Of a DNA stretch of 64,000 nucleotides, positions 22,126 to 31,464 are shown piece by piece (the first letter of the stretch is position 1; each line of letters begins with the position of its first letter). A program made the position numbers and the translations under genes. The stretch lies in assembly GCA_016218685.1 (NCBI GenBank), contig JACRDD010000004.1, forward strand, positions 372,001-436,000, given 5' to 3'. The notes beneath the pieces were generated by a model, which was not told the DNA's origin, searched no databases, and saw only the letters and a list, made by a program, of their open reading frames with translations. This DNA comes from Desulfobacterales bacterium (GTDB lineage: Bacteria > Desulfobacterota > Desulfobacteria > Desulfobacterales > Desulfosarcinaceae).

Positions 22126-24267
22126 TTACTGTTTGCGCTTGGCATTCGGCAGCGTCACGTGGAACCGGCTGCCTCCGCCGGGACGCGATTCCACCCGGAT
22201 CTGGCCATCCAGCCGGCCGAGAATCTGGCGGACAAGGGTCAGTCCCAGACCTTCGCCTTCCGGCCCGGAGGGGTCGATACGATGGAAGAGTTCAAAGATA
22301 TTCTCTCGATCTTCCGGGGCAATGCCGATGCCGTTGTCTTCAACGCAGTAGCACGCTTGACCGTGTTCGATGGCACCGCTGATCCGTATTTCGCCCGGCC
22401 GTGCCGGATCGAGGAACTTCAGCGCGTTGTCCACAAGGTTTGCGAACACCTGGGTGAGTTGAACCTCATCCCCCAGGCAGGCGGGCAAATCGGATACGCG
22501 CAGCGCGACGCCGGCTTGCTTGGCCGTAAATTCGAAAGAGGCGACGACCCGGGTGACCAGTCGGTTCATGTCCAGCGGCCCGATGGTCAGCGCGGCCCGG
22601 CCCAAACGGGACAACTTGAGCAACCCTTTGAGCAGGGCGTCCATCTGCCGCGTGCTGTTCCGGATGTAGCCAAGGGCGCTGGTCATCTCCGGCAGGGCCG
22701 CCCGTACCGCGGCCGCAAGAGCGTCCGGAGAAGCATCCCCGGCGGCCAGGGCGTTTTGGACTGCCTCCACGGCATAGGCCAGCTCCCGACCGTAACCGTC
22801 CACATTTACCAGTGGCGAGCGCAGGTCGTGGGAGGCTGCGTAGACGATCTGCTCGAGTTCTTTGTTTTTGGCCGCGATACGTTGCTCGGCCTGCTTGCGT
22901 TCGGTGATATCGGAGAACACCACGGCAAAGGTGCCTTTGGCCGGTGAAAATGCCCGCGCTTCGAAATAGCGGCCAATCTCCTGGGCATAGTTTTCGAAGG
23001 ATATCGGCTCACCGGTCAGCGCCACCCGGCCATAGGTATCGATCCAGTGCTGCTCGGTGTCGGGCATCACCTCTTTGACGGTGTGGCCGATCAAATCCTG
23101 GGCCCGGGCGCCGGTCAGTTTTTCAAAGGCCGGGTTGATTTCGATGAACCGGTAATCCAGGGGCCGGCCGTCGGCGTCGTAGATCATCTCGTGCAGGGCA
23201 AATCCCGTGGTCATGTTTTCAAAGAGCAGTTTGAACTTGTGCTCACTCTCGCGCTGCCGGGCCTCGGAAAGGTACAGCGTCCGGTATTGGGCCTTTTTGT
23301 GGCGCTGCCAGGCGACCAGCCCGATGGCGGCGAGGGCACCGGCCATGGCCAGAAACAAGACCAGGATCTCCACGGAGCGGATACGCCATTCGGCAAAGAC
23401 TTCGGCCGTGTCCTGCTTGGCCATCATAAGCCAGGTCGAATCGGGGACCGGCAGAATGACCGACAGCACCTCGGCGCCGCGATAGTCCGTGCCCTGGAAC
23501 ACGCCTTGCCGGCCCAGCACGGCCATGACCGCGGGCACATCGGTGCGGGTCAGGGGGATGCGCAGCTTGAGGGCCGTATCCGGCTGATGGCGCAGGTCGT
23601 TGAGGAACAGCACGTCCTGGCCGTCTCGCCGGATCAGCAGGGTTTCGGCGGTCTTGCTCGGGGTGGGCCAGGACCGGATCAGGGGAAAGAGAAACCGGTT
23701 GGCATCGCTGACCAGGACGACGGCGCCCAACGGCGACCCATCCGACGCGGCGCCGGTAAAGATCGGAGCGATGACCTGGATATAAGGCGCCGGCGTGTGC
23801 GCACCGAGGTACAACTCGGTGAGAATGGGCTTGCGGTTGTGCAACGCAGCAGTCAGGGCGGTGGTTGGTCCTTCGGGCATCTGCGTTTCACCGCTCGGGC
23901 GCAGCAGCGTCTTGCCCTGGGGGTCAACCAGTATGATGTGGGCGTAATGGGCCTTGAGACTGCGGAACCGGAACAGAAACGGCTGGGCATTGGCGTCACT
24001 CGGATCGGCGAGGAAACGGGCCACGCCCTGGGCAAAAAAGGGACTCTCCGTCATGACGGCGGCGTCGGCCAGGCGCTCGGCGCGCCAGGCCGCGAGCTGG
24101 TCCGCCTTGAGCCGGCCGATGGAACTCAGTTGCGCTTCGGCGGCGCGCTGAACCGCCTGCTTCTGGCTGCGATAGAACCATGTGCCGCCGGCAACCACGA
24201 CCGCCAGGGCCGCCGCCAGGGCAACCGCCATCCAGCGGGGAAATGAGTTCGTCTCGTCATACATCAT
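22126..24267 (-). CDS. Membrane sensor histidine kinase with phytochrome-type kinase core
   Basis: Protein of 713 aa: TM1 about 13-30, an extracytoplasmic sensor of about 270 aa (probably Cache-like), TM2 about 300-322, PAS about 345-460, HisKA with ASHDLRSPL near 479 and HATPase with DNALKFL, EDNGIGI and GEGLGLTLV to the end. The ASHDLRSPL form of the H-box and the C-terminal layout match phytochrome-like and bacteriophytochrome-type kinases that use single receivers. The sensor and PAS portions are very similar to those of the frameshifted gene just upstream, but the kinase core is of a different type. Its ATG overlaps the end of that upstream gene by 11 bases, which suggests translational coupling. 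Confidence 0.87.
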   Translation of the reverse strand: MMYDETNSFPRWMAVALAAALAVVVAGGTWFYRSQKQAVQRAAEAQLSSIGRLKADQLAAWRAERLADAAVMTESPFFAQGVARFLADPSDANAQPFLFRFRSLKAHYAHIILVDPQGKTLLRPSGETQMPEGPTTALTAALHNRKPILTELYLGAHTPAPYIQVIAPIFTGAASDGSPLGAVVLVSDANRFLFPLIRSWPTPSKTAETLLIRRDGQDVLFLNDLRHQPDTALKLRIPLTRTDVPAVMAVLGRQGVFQGTDYRGAEVLSVILPVPDSTWLMMAKQDTAEVFAEWRIRSVEILVLFLAMAGALAAIGLVAWQRHKKAQYRTLYLSEARQRESEHKFKLLFENMTTGFALHEMIYDADGRPLDYRFIEINPAFEKLTGARAQDLIGHTVKEVMPDTEQHWIDTYGRVALTGEPISFENYAQEIGRYFEARAFSPAKGTFAVVFSDITERKQAEQRIAAKNKELEQIVYAASHDLRSPLVNVDGYGRELAYAVEAVQNALAAGDASPDALAAAVRAALPEMTSALGYIRNSTRQMDALLKGLLKLSRLGRAALTIGPLDMNRLVTRVVASFEFTAKQAGVALRVSDLPACLGDEVQLTQVFANLVDNALKFLDPARPGEIRISGAIEHGQACYCVEDNGIGIAPEDRENIFELFHRIDPSGPEGEGLGLTLVRQILGRLDGQIRVESRPGGGSRFHVTLPNAKRKQ

Positions 24268-25513
24268 CGGTTCGCCTGTTGTTCTGGGGCGGGGCGGCGG
24301 CCTCGGTGTCCAATGGCAGGAATATCTTGAAGATGCTTCCCCGGCCGAGCTCGCTTTCCAGGGTGATGCAGCCGTTATGGGCCTTCACGGCACCCAGGGC
24401 CACGGAGAGCCCCAGGCCGCGTCCGGTAAACTTGGTGGAGTAAAACGGGTCGAAAAGCTTTTCGAAATCGCTTTGCGCAATGCCGCAACCGGTGTCCTTG
24501 ACTTCCAGGCAGGCGTACCCCGGCGCATTGGGCTGAAACTCGACCGGCCGGCGATGGGTGGTGGCGATATCCGCCGGGGACGCGCGCCGGACGTTCAGGG
24601 AGACGATGCCCGGTCGGCTGTGCATGGCTTCCCAGGCATTGACGACCAGCGCGTGAAGCATTTGGCGGATTTGGCCGGCGTCCGCCTTGACCACCGGACC
24701 CGGCTCGGGTAGATCGGTTTCCATAGTCACATGCTTCGGAAGGTCGGCCAGAAGGCCGGGCAGTAACCCGCGGCACGCCTCGGACAGGTCCAGCGGTTGG
24801 CGCCAGCCGACCGTCATACCCAAGTAGGTCAGCATCATGCCGGCCAACTCCGCAGCGCGACTGGCCGCGTTCATGGCTGACGTAAGCGCTTCGGTAGGGC
24901 CGGATTGGCCGGGCAGATCCGCAATGGCGATTTCCAGGTTTCCCATGACGATGGTCATAAGGTTGTTATAATGATGGGCGATGCCTCCGGCCATGCGTTC
25001 CAGGCTTTCAATCTTCTTAAGGTGGCTGAGTCTGAGCGTTTCTTCCGCCCGCTTGCGTTCGGTGATATCGGAGAACACCGTGGCAAACATGGGTGGGGCA
25101 GGGGAAAAGGCCCGCACATCGAAATATCGACCGATCTCCTGAGCATAATTCTCGAAGGATACAGGCTCGCCGGATTGGGCCACCTTGCCAAAGGTCTCTA
25201 TCCAGTACGGCTCGGTTTTGGGCAGGACCTCTTTCACGGTGCGCCCGATCAAATTCTGGGCCTGGAGGCCGGTCAGTTTTTCAAAGGCCGGGTTGATTTC
25301 GATGAACCGGTAATCCACCGGCTGGCCGTTGGGGTCATAGATCATTTCGTGCAAAGCAAATCCAGTGGTCATGTTTTCAAAGAGCTGCCGGAACTTTTGC
25401 TCGCTCTCCAGCAGCCGGGCTTCGGCGCGGAAAAGGGTTTCGTAATAGACATTTTTGCGCCGCTGCCAGGCGACCAGACCCATGGCCACGACCCCCCCCT
25501 GCCATGGCTGCAA
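24257..25513 (-). CDS. C-terminal half of a frameshifted sensor histidine kinase (PAS-HisKA-HATPase)
   Basis: This open frame carries the end of TM2 (VVAMGLVAWQRRKN), a PAS domain with NMTTGFALHEMIYD, a HisKA with MAGGIAHHYNN and an HATPase with DTGCGI and GRGLGLSVALG. Comparison with the paralogue at 22126-24267 shows that it is continuous with the frame at 25377-26429. The break is in a run of eight G on the coding strand (25492-25499); seven G would restore the join. The first residues listed from 25513 precede the break and are not expected to be a true start. Either the gene is inactive, or it switches by slippage, or the extra base is a sequence error. Confidence 0.75.
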   Translation of the reverse strand: MQPWQGGVVAMGLVAWQRRKNVYYETLFRAEARLLESEQKFRQLFENMTTGFALHEMIYDPNGQPVDYRFIEINPAFEKLTGLQAQNLIGRTVKEVLPKTEPYWIETFGKVAQSGEPVSFENYAQEIGRYFDVRAFSPAPPMFATVFSDITERKRAEETLRLSHLKKIESLERMAGGIAHHYNNLMTIVMGNLEIAIADLPGQSGPTEALTSAMNAASRAAELAGMMLTYLGMTVGWRQPLDLSEACRGLLPGLLADLPKHVTMETDLPEPGPVVKADAGQIRQMLHALVVNAWEAMHSRPGIVSLNVRRASPADIATTHRRPVEFQPNAPGYACLEVKDTGCGIAQSDFEKLFDPFYSTKFTGRGLGLSVALGAVKAHNGCITLESELGRGSIFKIFLPLDTEAAAPPQNNRRTDDV

Positions 25514-26429
25514 ATAGTGCCAGGATCAGAAAAGCCCGCAGGCGCCATTCGGCAAAGACTTCCGCCTTGTCCTGCTTGGCCACCATAAACCAGGGCGAAT
25601 CCGGGACCGGGAGCAGCACCGCCAGCACCGCCACACCCCGATAGTCCTTGCCTTGAAATACCCCTTGCCGGCCAAGCACAGCCATGACCGCTGGCACATC
25701 GGTGCGGCTCAGGGGAATACGCTGTTTAAGCACCGCGTCCGGCTGATGGCGCAGATCGTTGAGGAACAGCGCACTCTCGCCGTCCCGCCGGACCAAAAGG
25801 GTTTCGGCGGTTTTGCTCGGCGTGGGCCAGGACTGGATCAGGGGATAGAGAAACTGGGATGCATCGCTGATCAGAACGACCGCGCCCAGGGGCGGCGCAT
25901 CCGGCGCATCGCCGGAAAAGATGGGCGCGACCACGCTCAGATACGGCCCAGAGGTTTGCGTCCCGATGTACAGTTCGCCGAGAACGGACTTGCGCCCGCG
26001 CAGCGCAGCCGCCAGGGCCGCCCCGCAGTCCTTGTGCATGGTCGTTTCTCCGGTCAGGCTTAGAAGAACGATCCCGTGCGGGTCAACCAACAGGGCATCG
26101 ATGTATTGGTAATGGGCCTGAAGACTGCGCAACCGAGAGCTTAGCGGCTGAGTATTCGCGTCGTCCGGATTGGCCAGGAAGCGGGCCACGCCCTGGGCCA
26201 AAAACTGACTTTCCATCAATACGGCGGCGTCACCCAGGCGTTCCGCGCGCCAGGCGGCGATCTGATCCACCTTAAGGCGTGCGATGGAGGTCAGTTGCTC
26301 TTCAGCAGCCAACTGTAAGGCCTGCTCCTGGTCGTGGTAGAACCATGCGCCACCGATTATCAGCATCAGCAGGGCTGTTGCCTGGGCAACCGCCATCCAG
26401 CGGGGAAACGCTTTCATCGTGCTGTTCAT
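25377..26429 (-). CDS. N-terminal half of the frameshifted sensor histidine kinase (membrane sensor)
   Basis: Encodes TM1 (about 12-30) and an extracytoplasmic sensor of about 270 aa, then the beginning of TM2 ending LFAAMAGG. After the G8 tract the frame continues for about 40 unrelated residues to a stop at 25377. The sensor is a close paralogue of the one at 22126-24267: AAWRAERL, QGVARFLA, SWPTPSKTAETLL and FLNDLRHQPD recur in both. If translated as it stands, it would give a membrane-anchored sensor without a kinase. It is the first gene of the signalling operon. The whole 24257-26429 stretch corresponds to one ancestral kinase gene of about 720 codons. Confidence 0.75.
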   Translation of the reverse strand: MNSTMKAFPRWMAVAQATALLMLIIGGAWFYHDQEQALQLAAEEQLTSIARLKVDQIAAWRAERLGDAAVLMESQFLAQGVARFLANPDDANTQPLSSRLRSLQAHYQYIDALLVDPHGIVLLSLTGETTMHKDCGAALAAALRGRKSVLGELYIGTQTSGPYLSVVAPIFSGDAPDAPPLGAVVLISDASQFLYPLIQSWPTPSKTAETLLVRRDGESALFLNDLRHQPDAVLKQRIPLSRTDVPAVMAVLGRQGVFQGKDYRGVAVLAVLLPVPDSPWFMVAKQDKAEVFAEWRLRAFLILALFAAMAGGGRGHGSGRLAAAQKCLLRNPFPRRSPAAGERAKVPAAL

Positions 26430-29740: not shown

Positions 29741-30166
29741 TTAAGACACCGGTACGAGTTTGTATGCTTTAGCCGTCCAATCGAGGATTCCGCCGCTCAG
29801 ATGGTAGATCTGGGTAAAGCCCAGTTCGTCGAAAATTTTCAGCGCCTTTTTGCTGCGGTTGCCGCTGCGGCAGTAGACCAGGTAGGTTTTGCCGCGATCC
29901 AGGCGATCCAGAATCGATTTGAACTGAGGGCTGTAATAGTCGATGGAGACCGCTCCGGCAATGTGCCCCTGGGCAAATTCGGCCGGGGTGCGGATATCCA
30001 GGATAAGGAAGTCGGGATTGCCCTGGTGCGCTGCGATCAATGCCTGCGCTTCCGTAGCGGAGTACTCGTTGATGTTCGCAACCGCAACACCGATGCCGCC
30101 CAGCAGGAGAACCAGCAGGGTCAGCAGGGTGGTGCGGGCAGTATTGTTCTTTGGATTGTAAATCAT
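29741..30166 (-). CDS. Exported rhodanese-like protein
   Basis: Protein of 141 aa. Residues 11-30 form a hydrophobic signal or anchor (LLTLLVLLLGGIGVAVA). A single rhodanese domain follows, with the family markers LILDIRTPAEFAQGHIAGAVSID and the active-site loop YCRSGNRS, whose cysteine is the sulfur-carrying residue. It is thus probably an active sulfurtransferase in the periplasm or on the membrane. AAGGAG lies a few bases before the ATG. It is divergent from the selenoprotein msrA across a gap of about 500 bases. Its physiological sulfur acceptor is unknown. Confidence 0.88.
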   Translation of the reverse strand: MIYNPKNNTARTTLLTLLVLLLGGIGVAVANINEYSATEAQALIAAHQGNPDFLILDIRTPAEFAQGHIAGAVSIDYYSPQFKSILDRLDRGKTYLVYCRSGNRSKKALKIFDELGFTQIYHLSGGILDWTAKAYKLVPVS

Positions 30167-30663
30167 TCAGTCGCTCCTTTCTGAACTTATTCGACGCTTT
30201 CACGGAACCGGGCCGGCAACCGATTACGGGGAAAGGATCGCGATATATCCTGACTTCCGGTCAAGGGCTGCCGTTGGAGGCACGATTCCAAAACACGATC
30301 CCAACAATAGCACCGGTATCGCAAATCACAATGGGCGCTCCGGGCGCCTGTTCGGGAATCCATACCCGATTGTGGCCGTTCCTATTTTTAGCGGATTCAA
30401 GACAGAATTCCCAAAGATCCCATCGAAAGAGAAGGCGGCGCAGCGCTGCCAGGGCCAGCGGTCGCCGCAGTCGCCTTGCTTGACACGCGCCGGCGGCGTC
30501 TCAATTGTTATAAAACACTCCAGAACATTCCATCGGTTCAATGCCCAGGACCGTGGCGGCGGGCATGGTGGAAGATTGGACGCCATGCACCCATGGCAGG
30601 CCTTGAAGGTGAGAGGACGGTTAAAATGGCTTTCGGAAAGCTTGTGCCGCAGGAGGTGTGATC
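30167..30663. other. Intergenic region upstream of msrA
   Basis: About 500 bases between the divergent rhodanese and msrA starts. Open frames here show no family resemblance. A TTGACA near 30479 and a TATAAA near 30507 are too far apart for a normal promoter, so no firm element is called. Confidence 0.4.
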
Positions 30664-31464
30664 TTGAGACGCTTTGCCGTGATGATTCCCGGGGTACTGC
30701 TCTGGCTGAGTGCCGCGCTGCCGGGTTGGGGCGAAACACCGAAAATGAACGGCACCGTGCCAGCGGCGCCGCCAAAGGAGCCTGTGATGTTCGTGGATGA
30801 CCTTAATACCGTTACTGATTCGACGATTCCGCCGATCGACCGGGCGGTCCCGGAGTTATTCGAAACCGCCGCCTTCGGCCTGGGCTGATTCTGGGGCGTT
30901 GAAGCCCGGTTCGGGCTGATCGAAGGGGTTCTGCGCACCCGGGTGGGTTATGCCGGCGGCACGACCGCCAACCCCGATTATGGTCACATCGGCGACCACA
31001 CCGAGACCGTGCAGGTGGATTACGATCCGGAGCGTATTTCCTACACGGAGCTGCTGGCCATCTTCTGGCAGAGTCATGATCCCACCGGCCGGGCCTGGTC
31101 CCAGCAGTACCGCAATGCCGTTTTTTATGGCGACGAAGCCCAGCGCCGTCTGGCATTGGAGAGCAAAGCAGCCCTGGGAAAAAAACTCGGCAAATCGGTT
31201 CACACCGACATCGTCCCCTTGCAACGCTTCACATGGGCCGAGGACTATCACCAGAAGTATCTGCTGAAATCAGAACACGAACTGGTTCGTGAGTTGCAGG
31301 GCATCTACCCGCGCCAGAGGGATTTCGACAACTCCGCGGCCGTGGCCCGACTCAATGGCTATGTGGGTGGCAACGGCAGCCGTGAGCAGCTAGCCCGGGA
31401 AATCGACCAACTGGGCTTGAGCGAGCGGGGCAAAAAGCTCCTGATGCGCCTGGTGCGTCCGTGA
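30664..31464 (+). CDS. msrA: Exported selenoprotein peptide methionine sulfoxide reductase A (Sec at TGA 30886-30888)
   Basis: Two open segments, before and after an in-frame TGA at 30886-30888, form one MsrA. The TGA falls in GLG-U-FWGVEARF where the family has GCFWGVE, exactly the catalytic cysteine, so it is read as selenocysteine. The rest is complete: RVGYAGGTTANPDYGHIGDHTE, FWQSHDPT, and EDYHQKYL. There is no cysteine in the whole protein, so no resolving residue. A hydrophobic leader (MIPGVLLWLSAALPGWG) predicts export. AGGAGG at 30651-30656 favours TTG at 30664 (7 bases) over GTG at 30658. It would repair oxidised methionine S-sulfoxides in the cell envelope. A tool that stops at TGA will report only two fragments (30658-30888 and a downstream piece). 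Confidence 0.88.
30903..30917 (+). promoter_or_regulatory. Candidate bacterial SECIS hairpin apex
   Basis: AGCCCG at 30903-30908 pairs with CGGGCT at 30912-30917 around GTT, so the apex can be read as a GGTTC loop on a five-pair stem. It begins 14 bases after the TGA. Bacterial SECIS elements lie within the reading frame about 15-40 bases after the UGA with a G-containing apical loop that SelB binds; E. coli fdhF has GGTCT. Confidence 0.6.

Follow-up and report, generated by a model that had tools for sequence, protein, structure and literature searches.

The closest described relative of the gene reported here is the MsrA of Clostridium (Alkaliphilus) oremlandii (CoMsrA; PDB 4lwj-4lwm, 4u66 and 4w8c), which, according to the parts of PMC4333827 drawn on here, contains one catalytic selenocysteine (Sec) and no cysteine, is reduced by glutaredoxin and not by thioredoxin, and loses its activity without its helical domain. 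Excerpts of PMC4479559 also name glutaredoxin as the reductant and describe a dimer linked via the catalytic residues, likely through a diselenide in the native protein. MsrA is listed among the prokaryotic selenoprotein families in a 2026 review (PMC13188914, in part), and a table of PMC2398784 (in part) gives a figure of 9 for Sec-containing MsrA in ocean metagenomes; the term "signal peptide" does not occur in the searched portions of these two sources, nor do "periplasm" and "exported" in those of the review. A paper on the finding of selenoproteins covers three Desulfosarcina genomes, its accessible portion holding nothing on their MsrA (PMC12013277). As for enzymes and envelope proteins present in more than one compartment, the excerpted literature describes animal Msr proteins that reach different compartments through alternative first exons (PMC1431549) and Salmonella genes (OmpX, PagC, YfhG) in which a downstream in-frame start, detected by Ribo-RET, removes the signal peptide or lipoprotein N-terminus (PMC11005335). 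The Salmonella dual starts rest on ribosome profiling, whereas the case made below is comparative only and concerns a selenoprotein. Among titles and abstract starts of the open-access literature, neither an exported nor a dual-start Sec-MsrA was found.

In the window (the whole stretch of 64,000 nucleotides that was analysed), one frame is interrupted by a single TGA (Table 1), and the 266 residues obtained by reading this codon as an amino acid include no cysteine, both as the earlier note had described. The TGA aligns without gaps with the catalytic residue 16 of CoMsrA. With the TGA read as a residue, the protein scored 149 bits against PF01625 (cut-off 23.7) and 129.5 bits against TIGR00401 (cut-off 108.1). 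Most of the first score came from the piece after the TGA alone (135.5 bits), and no Pfam family was detected at E<=0.001 in the 74 residues preceding it; the earlier description of both halves as full MsrA thus holds for the second part and was overstated for the first, because those 74 residues are signal and linker. The C-terminal helical domain, which had gone unmentioned, matched PF20939 ("Selenoprotein methionine sulfoxide reductase A, helical domain") with 26.3 bits (cut-off 23.7), and four of six aligned members matched it at E<=0.001.

Table 1. Coordinates of the features described. Positions are those of the window unless a locus (L), genome (G) or contig (C) is given.
Feature	Location	Strand	Remarks
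Upstream Shine-Dalgarno sequence AGGAGG	30651..30656	+	7 nt before TTG 30664; duplex energy -13.1
Sec-MsrA gene, long form of 266 aa	30664..31464	+	TTG start; Sec at residue 75; stop TGA 31462-31464
Signal-peptide-like N-terminus MRRFAVMIPGVLLWLSAALPGWGE	30664..30735	+	12-residue hydropathy 2.32; putative extent and cleavage site
Internal Shine-Dalgarno sequence AAAGGAG	30774..30780	+	6 nt before internal ATG
Internal in-frame ATG (Met42)	30787..30789	+	exactly 33 codons ahead of Sec; putative start of a 225-aa signal-less form
MsrA catalytic domain	30868..31281	+	Pfam match, residues 69-206
In-frame TGA (Sec75)	30886..30888	+	catalytic position, GUFWG
Bacterial SECIS-type hairpin	30903..30917	+	stem AGCCC/GGGCT, loop GGTTC
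C-terminal helical domain PF20939	31330..31425	+	residues 223-254; modelled helices 205-263
Sensor-kinase-like protein	24257-26429		named by eye
Rhodanese-domain protein	29741-30166	-	divergent; adjoins the Sec-MsrA gene; signal-like N-terminus by eye
Cys MsrAB of the same genome	L005:1363-2523 (C45)		signal-like N-terminus; one of 18 MsrAB genes examined
Molybdopterin-type proteins of five relatives	L168:7934-8978, L169:4958-6356, L170:5114-6158, L171:1224-2445, L177:5960-7016		named by eye; near Sec-MsrA
FxVxUYDVG ORFs	L247:1566-1853, L248:1496-1783, L249:1415-1708, L250:1129-1419	+	one in-frame TGA each
FxVxUYDVG ORFs	L251:1259-1573, L252:1022-1306, L253:1010-1384	-	one in-frame TGA each
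VPGUxxT thioredoxin-like ORF	L254 (G037:C7:12643-13053)		TGA in VPGU
selC-selB cassettes	L257-L264		G052, G045, G007, G017, G019, G046, G042, G039
tRNA-Sec-like gene	L266:519-606 (G034:C128)		anticodon GCA

CoMsrA was also the closest solved structure, aligned over 193 gapless residues (window residues 67-259 with 8-200, 183 bits). Both proteins present the catalytic Sec in a GUFWG motif, lack any other Cys and carry the C-terminal helical domain, and the window residues aligned with Y47, E55, H137 and Y140 of CoMsrA are identical. A structure model built from six sequences (mean pLDDT 72, pTM 0.65), of low confidence at residues 1-50 and at residues 194-198, the latter part of the active site, retrieved CoMsrA chains at ranks 1 to 7 in Foldseek (TM-score by target 0.82-0.83). 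As judged from its sequence, which combines the MsrA profile, G[C/U]FWG, Sec, no resolving Cys and PF20939, the window gene is a one-selenocysteine MsrA of the CoMsrA (1-Cys selenoprotein) type, and it almost certainly carries its Sec by means of the in-frame stop codon. The earlier note had called an exported form lacking any cysteine unusual; a Cys-free MsrA with a single Sec is already known and crystallised (CoMsrA; PMC4333827, in part), so this is not the unusual part, and the difference lies in export. CoMsrA has 209 residues with Sec at residue 16, and therefore no signal, whereas the window protein has 74 residues ahead of its Sec, among which are a signal-like N-terminus and a further potential start.

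Relatives of this gene were widespread. TGA-containing matches were present in 17 of 60 genomes (the window's own included; two of the 17 were partial), and in unselected searches the TGA was found inside 28 of 29 matches in the phylum (395 genomes, E<=1e-35) and inside 51 of 52 in the class (389 genomes, E<=1e-40), two overlapping sets that both contain the window's own gene. Of the two exceptions, the one in G207 is an ordinary Cys MsrA and the one in G054 a partial match beginning past the catalytic site. From 85 candidate loci, 78 members were retained after removal of three duplicates (L044-L046) and four off-pattern rows, namely a partial match from query residue 108 (L029), a truncated one (L030), one with a second TGA (L204) and an ordinary Cys MsrA (L211); within these 78 the TGA is present by construction of the pattern. 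Genus labels were assigned by hand for 52 genera, with two Planctomycetota records (L047 and L048, among the best 80 loci) labelled separately. On a quick tree without bootstrap, the 78 Sec rows lay on one side of a branch separating them from 17 Cys MsrA rows (SH-aLRT 99). No Cys was encoded from codon -33 to the end in 60 of the 78, and at any one position counted from Sec, Cys occurred in at most three members. This breadth, absent from the earlier note, would make the exported one-Sec MsrA a family across some 50 genera and no curiosity. Among the rows set aside, L204 (G418:C238) is a Sec-MsrA in which a second TGA replaces the Trp of UFW, either a sequencing error or a second recoding. 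Another locus, L112, was considered as a Cys member of the helical-domain family and rejected: it is an ordinary MsrA that stops early despite a far C-terminal match.

The signal peptide proposed for the window protein is matched by a signal-like N-terminus, and by a rough rule on hydropathy and start codon such N-termini were found in 68 of the 78 members, with a lipobox-like motif in 26; the call of export here means hydropathy and lipobox patterns, not SignalP, under a rule of our own choice. By this rule export would be family-wide and would set the family apart from CoMsrA. Compared with its two nearest relatives, the extension of the window protein gave rough dN/dS values of 0.38 and 0.33, a count that points to its conservation as protein, and over 15 pairs of our choosing the approximate ratio was below 1 in 12 and above 1 in three. 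The N-termini of L027, L192, L197 and L198 (NRRTFL, GRRDFA, RRTFLK and TRRSFL) are RRxF-like and by eye resemble twin-arginine signals, which, if true, would mean export of a folded selenoprotein.

What appears to be new here is the strong Shine-Dalgarno (SD) sequence with an in-frame ATG that many members carry between signal and enzyme, an arrangement that the earlier note did not mention. An ATG lies exactly 33 codons before Sec in 31 of the 78 members, Met being the commonest residue at that position, followed by Thr (7). The median SD energy before these ATGs was -7.1, against -2.7 for 201 in-frame and -2.6 for 368 out-of-frame downstream ATGs (p about 1e-12, kinship ignored). With start positions and a cut-off of -6 of our own choice, 37 of 78 members, belonging to 26 of 52 genera, had an ATG within codons -40 to -21 preceded by an SD of energy <=-6, compared with 19 of 707 equally sized control windows (2.7%). 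The 31 ATGs at -33, unselected on SD, had a mean energy of -6.87, compared with -4.31 +- 0.42 in synonymous shuffles, which keep protein and codon usage fixed (0/1000 shuffles). Taking one member per genus, the one way in which kinship was handled, 16 of 20 SDs were strong where 6.4 were expected (0/1000). No SD excess was detected at in-frame ATGs downstream of Sec (20 strong in 200, 22.9 expected). Those at -60 to -42 were also above shuffles (14 strong in 71, 5.7 expected), although this control is not clean, because some ATGs there are perhaps true upstream starts.

A second start with its own SD is thus beyond chance at the level of the family, whereas the internal SD of the window gene alone does not exceed its synonymous shuffles (p 0.158). 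In the same single-gene test only three of 56 genes reached p<0.05, and the case for the internal start is therefore collective. The residues encoded at the internal SD vary (KE, TEA, KEG, SEA) while the SD is kept. In favour of the internal start, it is also retained, at -34, by L025, a member of the same genus that lacks a signal-like segment. The RNA around the 37 strong internal starts was less structured than that around 185 control ATGs (median -9.9 vs -12.9 kcal/mol, p 1e-4); at the internal site of the window gene, the fold of 60 nt (-12.4) is near the control median, and hence not specially open.

From these comparisons we propose, with a probability of roughly 0.58, that one selenoprotein gene gives rise to an exported and a cytosolic isoform through two starts, with the UGA decoded as Sec. 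Initiation at TTG 30664 would yield the form with the signal peptide, presumably exported, and initiation at ATG 30787, with its own SD, a form of 225 residues that would be retained in the cytoplasm as the whole folded enzyme; no part of residues 1-50 was modelled with confidence, so that initiation at the internal ATG leaves the modelled fold complete. Calculated with Cys in place of Sec, the masses are 29.8 kDa for the long form before processing and 25.4 kDa for the short one. Both forms would come from one mRNA with the same Sec codon and SECIS and so serve two compartments, UGA codon 75 being read in each by SelB and tRNA-Sec at the hairpin 14 nt downstream. By analogy with CoMsrA, the selenolate would reduce Met-S-sulfoxide and, because no resolving Cys is present, be recycled by an outside thiol or through an Se-Se dimer; glutaredoxin or thioredoxin might do this in the cytoplasm, while a DsbD/TlpA-type donor would be needed outside it. 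For the anaerobe Sec-MsrA family at large, we consider the chances slightly better than even that this widespread enzyme is made from two starts on one mRNA, with shared Sec codon and SECIS, for both the envelope (as a periplasmic protein or lipoprotein) and the cytoplasm, and that exported Cys-type MsrAB may be as well. Two questions follow, namely by what route a selenoenzyme lacking Cys could be recycled once it is outside the cytoplasm, and whether internal initiation serves bacteria as a means of sending a repair selenoenzyme to two compartments. Gene-calling programs that end the frame at the TGA, or that pick a single start, hide both the Sec and the possible dual start.

The explanation that competes best with dual initiation is that of an enzyme exported only, in which the internal SD and ATG are little used and are either left over from an ancestral gene without a signal or a side effect of linkers rich in Lys, Glu and Met. 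It fits the 41 of 78 members in which no strong internal start was found and the 19 changes of the trait on the quick tree, by which the trait is labile, as well as the window gene itself, with its unexceptional shuffle test and an upstream SD (-13.1) far stronger than the internal one (-6.3). Against it stands the excess of SD strength at fixed protein sequence, which no shuffle equalled and which persisted with one member per genus, and the internal SD is stronger than the upstream one in 23 of the 34 members that have both. Moreover, among 46 other exported-type genes from the window, the 18 neighbourhoods and the best 80 loci, a comparable site with SD <=-6 was seen in only five and one with SD <=-7 in none; this comparison used a wider span of 45 codons and somewhat different rules. 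We regard exclusive export as less likely than not.

Much less probable is an enzyme confined to the cytoplasm, with the internal ATG as the sole real start and the upstream signal-like frame untranslated. The members with the stronger internal SD would suit it, as would some upstream ATGs that lack an SD and the absence of a signal-like segment from L025; the AGGAGG 7 nt before the upstream start of the window gene, the prevalence of signal-like N-termini and lipobox-like motifs in the family and the evolution of the extension as protein in most pairs all speak against it.

The hairpin and the Sec machinery bear on the decoding of the UGA. The GC hairpin with a G-containing apical loop that had been noted 14 bases after the TGA was found there, with G at loop positions 1 and 2. 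Across the 78 relatives, its degenerate codon positions hardly vary: the third base in the stem is C in 78/78 at codon 6, G in 59/59 four-fold codons at codon 7 and G in 74/78 at codon 9, the remaining four-fold columns having entropies of 1.1-1.9 bits. The loop G at column 23 occurs in all 78. Pairs 17-31 and 18-30 vary on both sides (A-U and C-G; U-A and G-C), and 49 doubly changed paired cells were counted, where shuffles averaged 20 (0/1000 reached 49) and no slid register gave more than 19; the number of pair types was no greater than in shuffles (296/1000). At least 4 bp form in the tested register in 66 of 78 members (5 bp in the window) and only 2-3 bp in nine, while L227, L235 and L238, with AGG/GGA instead of CGG/GGG, form their stem in a shifted register. 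For 74 nt of the window, the minimum-energy fold favours an overlapping alternative hairpin (z -1.88; 11/200 shuffles equally good), RNAalifold on the 78 members gave a different, weak stem, and the Rfam search for SECIS returned two sub-threshold matches, the SECIS family not among them.

Of the Sec machinery whose presence the earlier note had asked about, SelB (367 bits), SelA (611) and SelD (382, its gene itself with one TGA) were each found over the cut-off, and selC was not found in the window's assembly, which comprises 3.8 Mb and is 64.6% complete. The four sub-cut-off matches were two tRNA-Ser, a tRNA-Leu and a tRNA-Phe, none of them within the stretches around selA, selB and selD. 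The 5.5-kb selC neighbourhood of a sister species had no match in the assembly in a search run without a positive control, which fits a stretch missing from the assembly but is no proof of it. A tRNA-Sec over the cut-off was detected in 51 of 60 relatives' genomes (the window's own counted in the 60, not in the 51), and ARAGORN called a tRNA-SeC in two genomes of the same genus. A pseudogene, with a genuine stop codon or a sequencing error at the TGA, for which the failure to find selC in this assembly could be cited, is thus extremely improbable, as the TGA recurs inside nearly all family matches, the hairpin is frozen at synonymous positions and SelA, SelB and SelD are all encoded in the genome, a conservation that speaks against it at the level of the family.

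A counterpart of the internal start was seen in exported-type Cys MsrAB, which share the signal-like N-terminus and the MsrA fold with Sec-MsrA and differ in having a catalytic Cys, a MsrAB-type frame of about 370-410 residues and a position on the opposite side of the tree branch. Immediately before the MsrA domain, 10 of 18 signal-like Cys MsrAB genes had an ATG preceded by a strong SD, with 5.0 strong ones expected among the 16 having an ATG there (count test 1/1000, mean-energy test 30/1000). The pattern appears weaker than in Sec-MsrA, and its presence here means that the trait may be a general one of envelope Msr genes.

No reductant gene adjoining Sec-MsrA was identified in an all-against-all comparison of the ORFs of 18 neighbourhoods (25 groups examined). 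Besides MsrA and its antisense frame, ORF groups reached at most seven of the 18 loci, the seven-locus groups all belonging to one genus (g4). A sensor-kinase-like group (five loci, four genera) and a molybdopterin-type group (five loci, two genera) were considered and are not obvious thiol donors. The proteins of the latter group, located near Sec-MsrA in five relatives, presumably resemble enzymes of the molybdopterin sulfite-oxidase/MsrP type. The rhodanese-domain protein next to the window gene was in none of the listed neighbourhood groups. NF041383 (VPGUxxT thioredoxin-like), considered as a fused partner, was rejected at 40.3 bits (cut-off 275), with the match falling on the MsrA part, and none of the 60 genomes passed its cut-off.

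Other Sec-related loci were observed in the relatives. In seven of them, small exported-type ORFs of 95-125 residues as read contain one in-frame TGA in FxVxUYDVG, those of L247-L249 directly downstream of msrAB. Nothing over the cut-off was found for these ORFs with Pfam (four of the seven) or NCBIfam (three), and their resemblance to HMA metal-binding (seleno)proteins (NF041115) is weak, at 21-38 bits against a cut-off of 95, which makes them a candidate unnamed selenoprotein family. In addition, a separate VPGUxxT thioredoxin-like ORF (L254) matches the first 136 positions of NF041383 with 191 bits, under the cut-off, and the later part of that profile is the part matching the small YDVG ORFs and MsrA.

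Eight relatives showed a cassette in which a divergent tRNA-Sec (45.6-55.6 bits, anticodon TCA) lies upstream of a selB, at a distance of up to about 0.5 kb, and this selB has a lower score than the usual one. Six of these genomes also have a usual tRNA-Sec (73-77 bits), and in G017 and G019 no other tRNA-Sec over the cut-off was found. Finally, one further genome carries the tRNA-Sec-like gene L266 (53 bits), called tRNA-Cys by ARAGORN, at about 1.5 kb from a partial match resembling selB; its product may be a tRNA of the Sec type that reads Cys codons, a form of recoding known in the literature.
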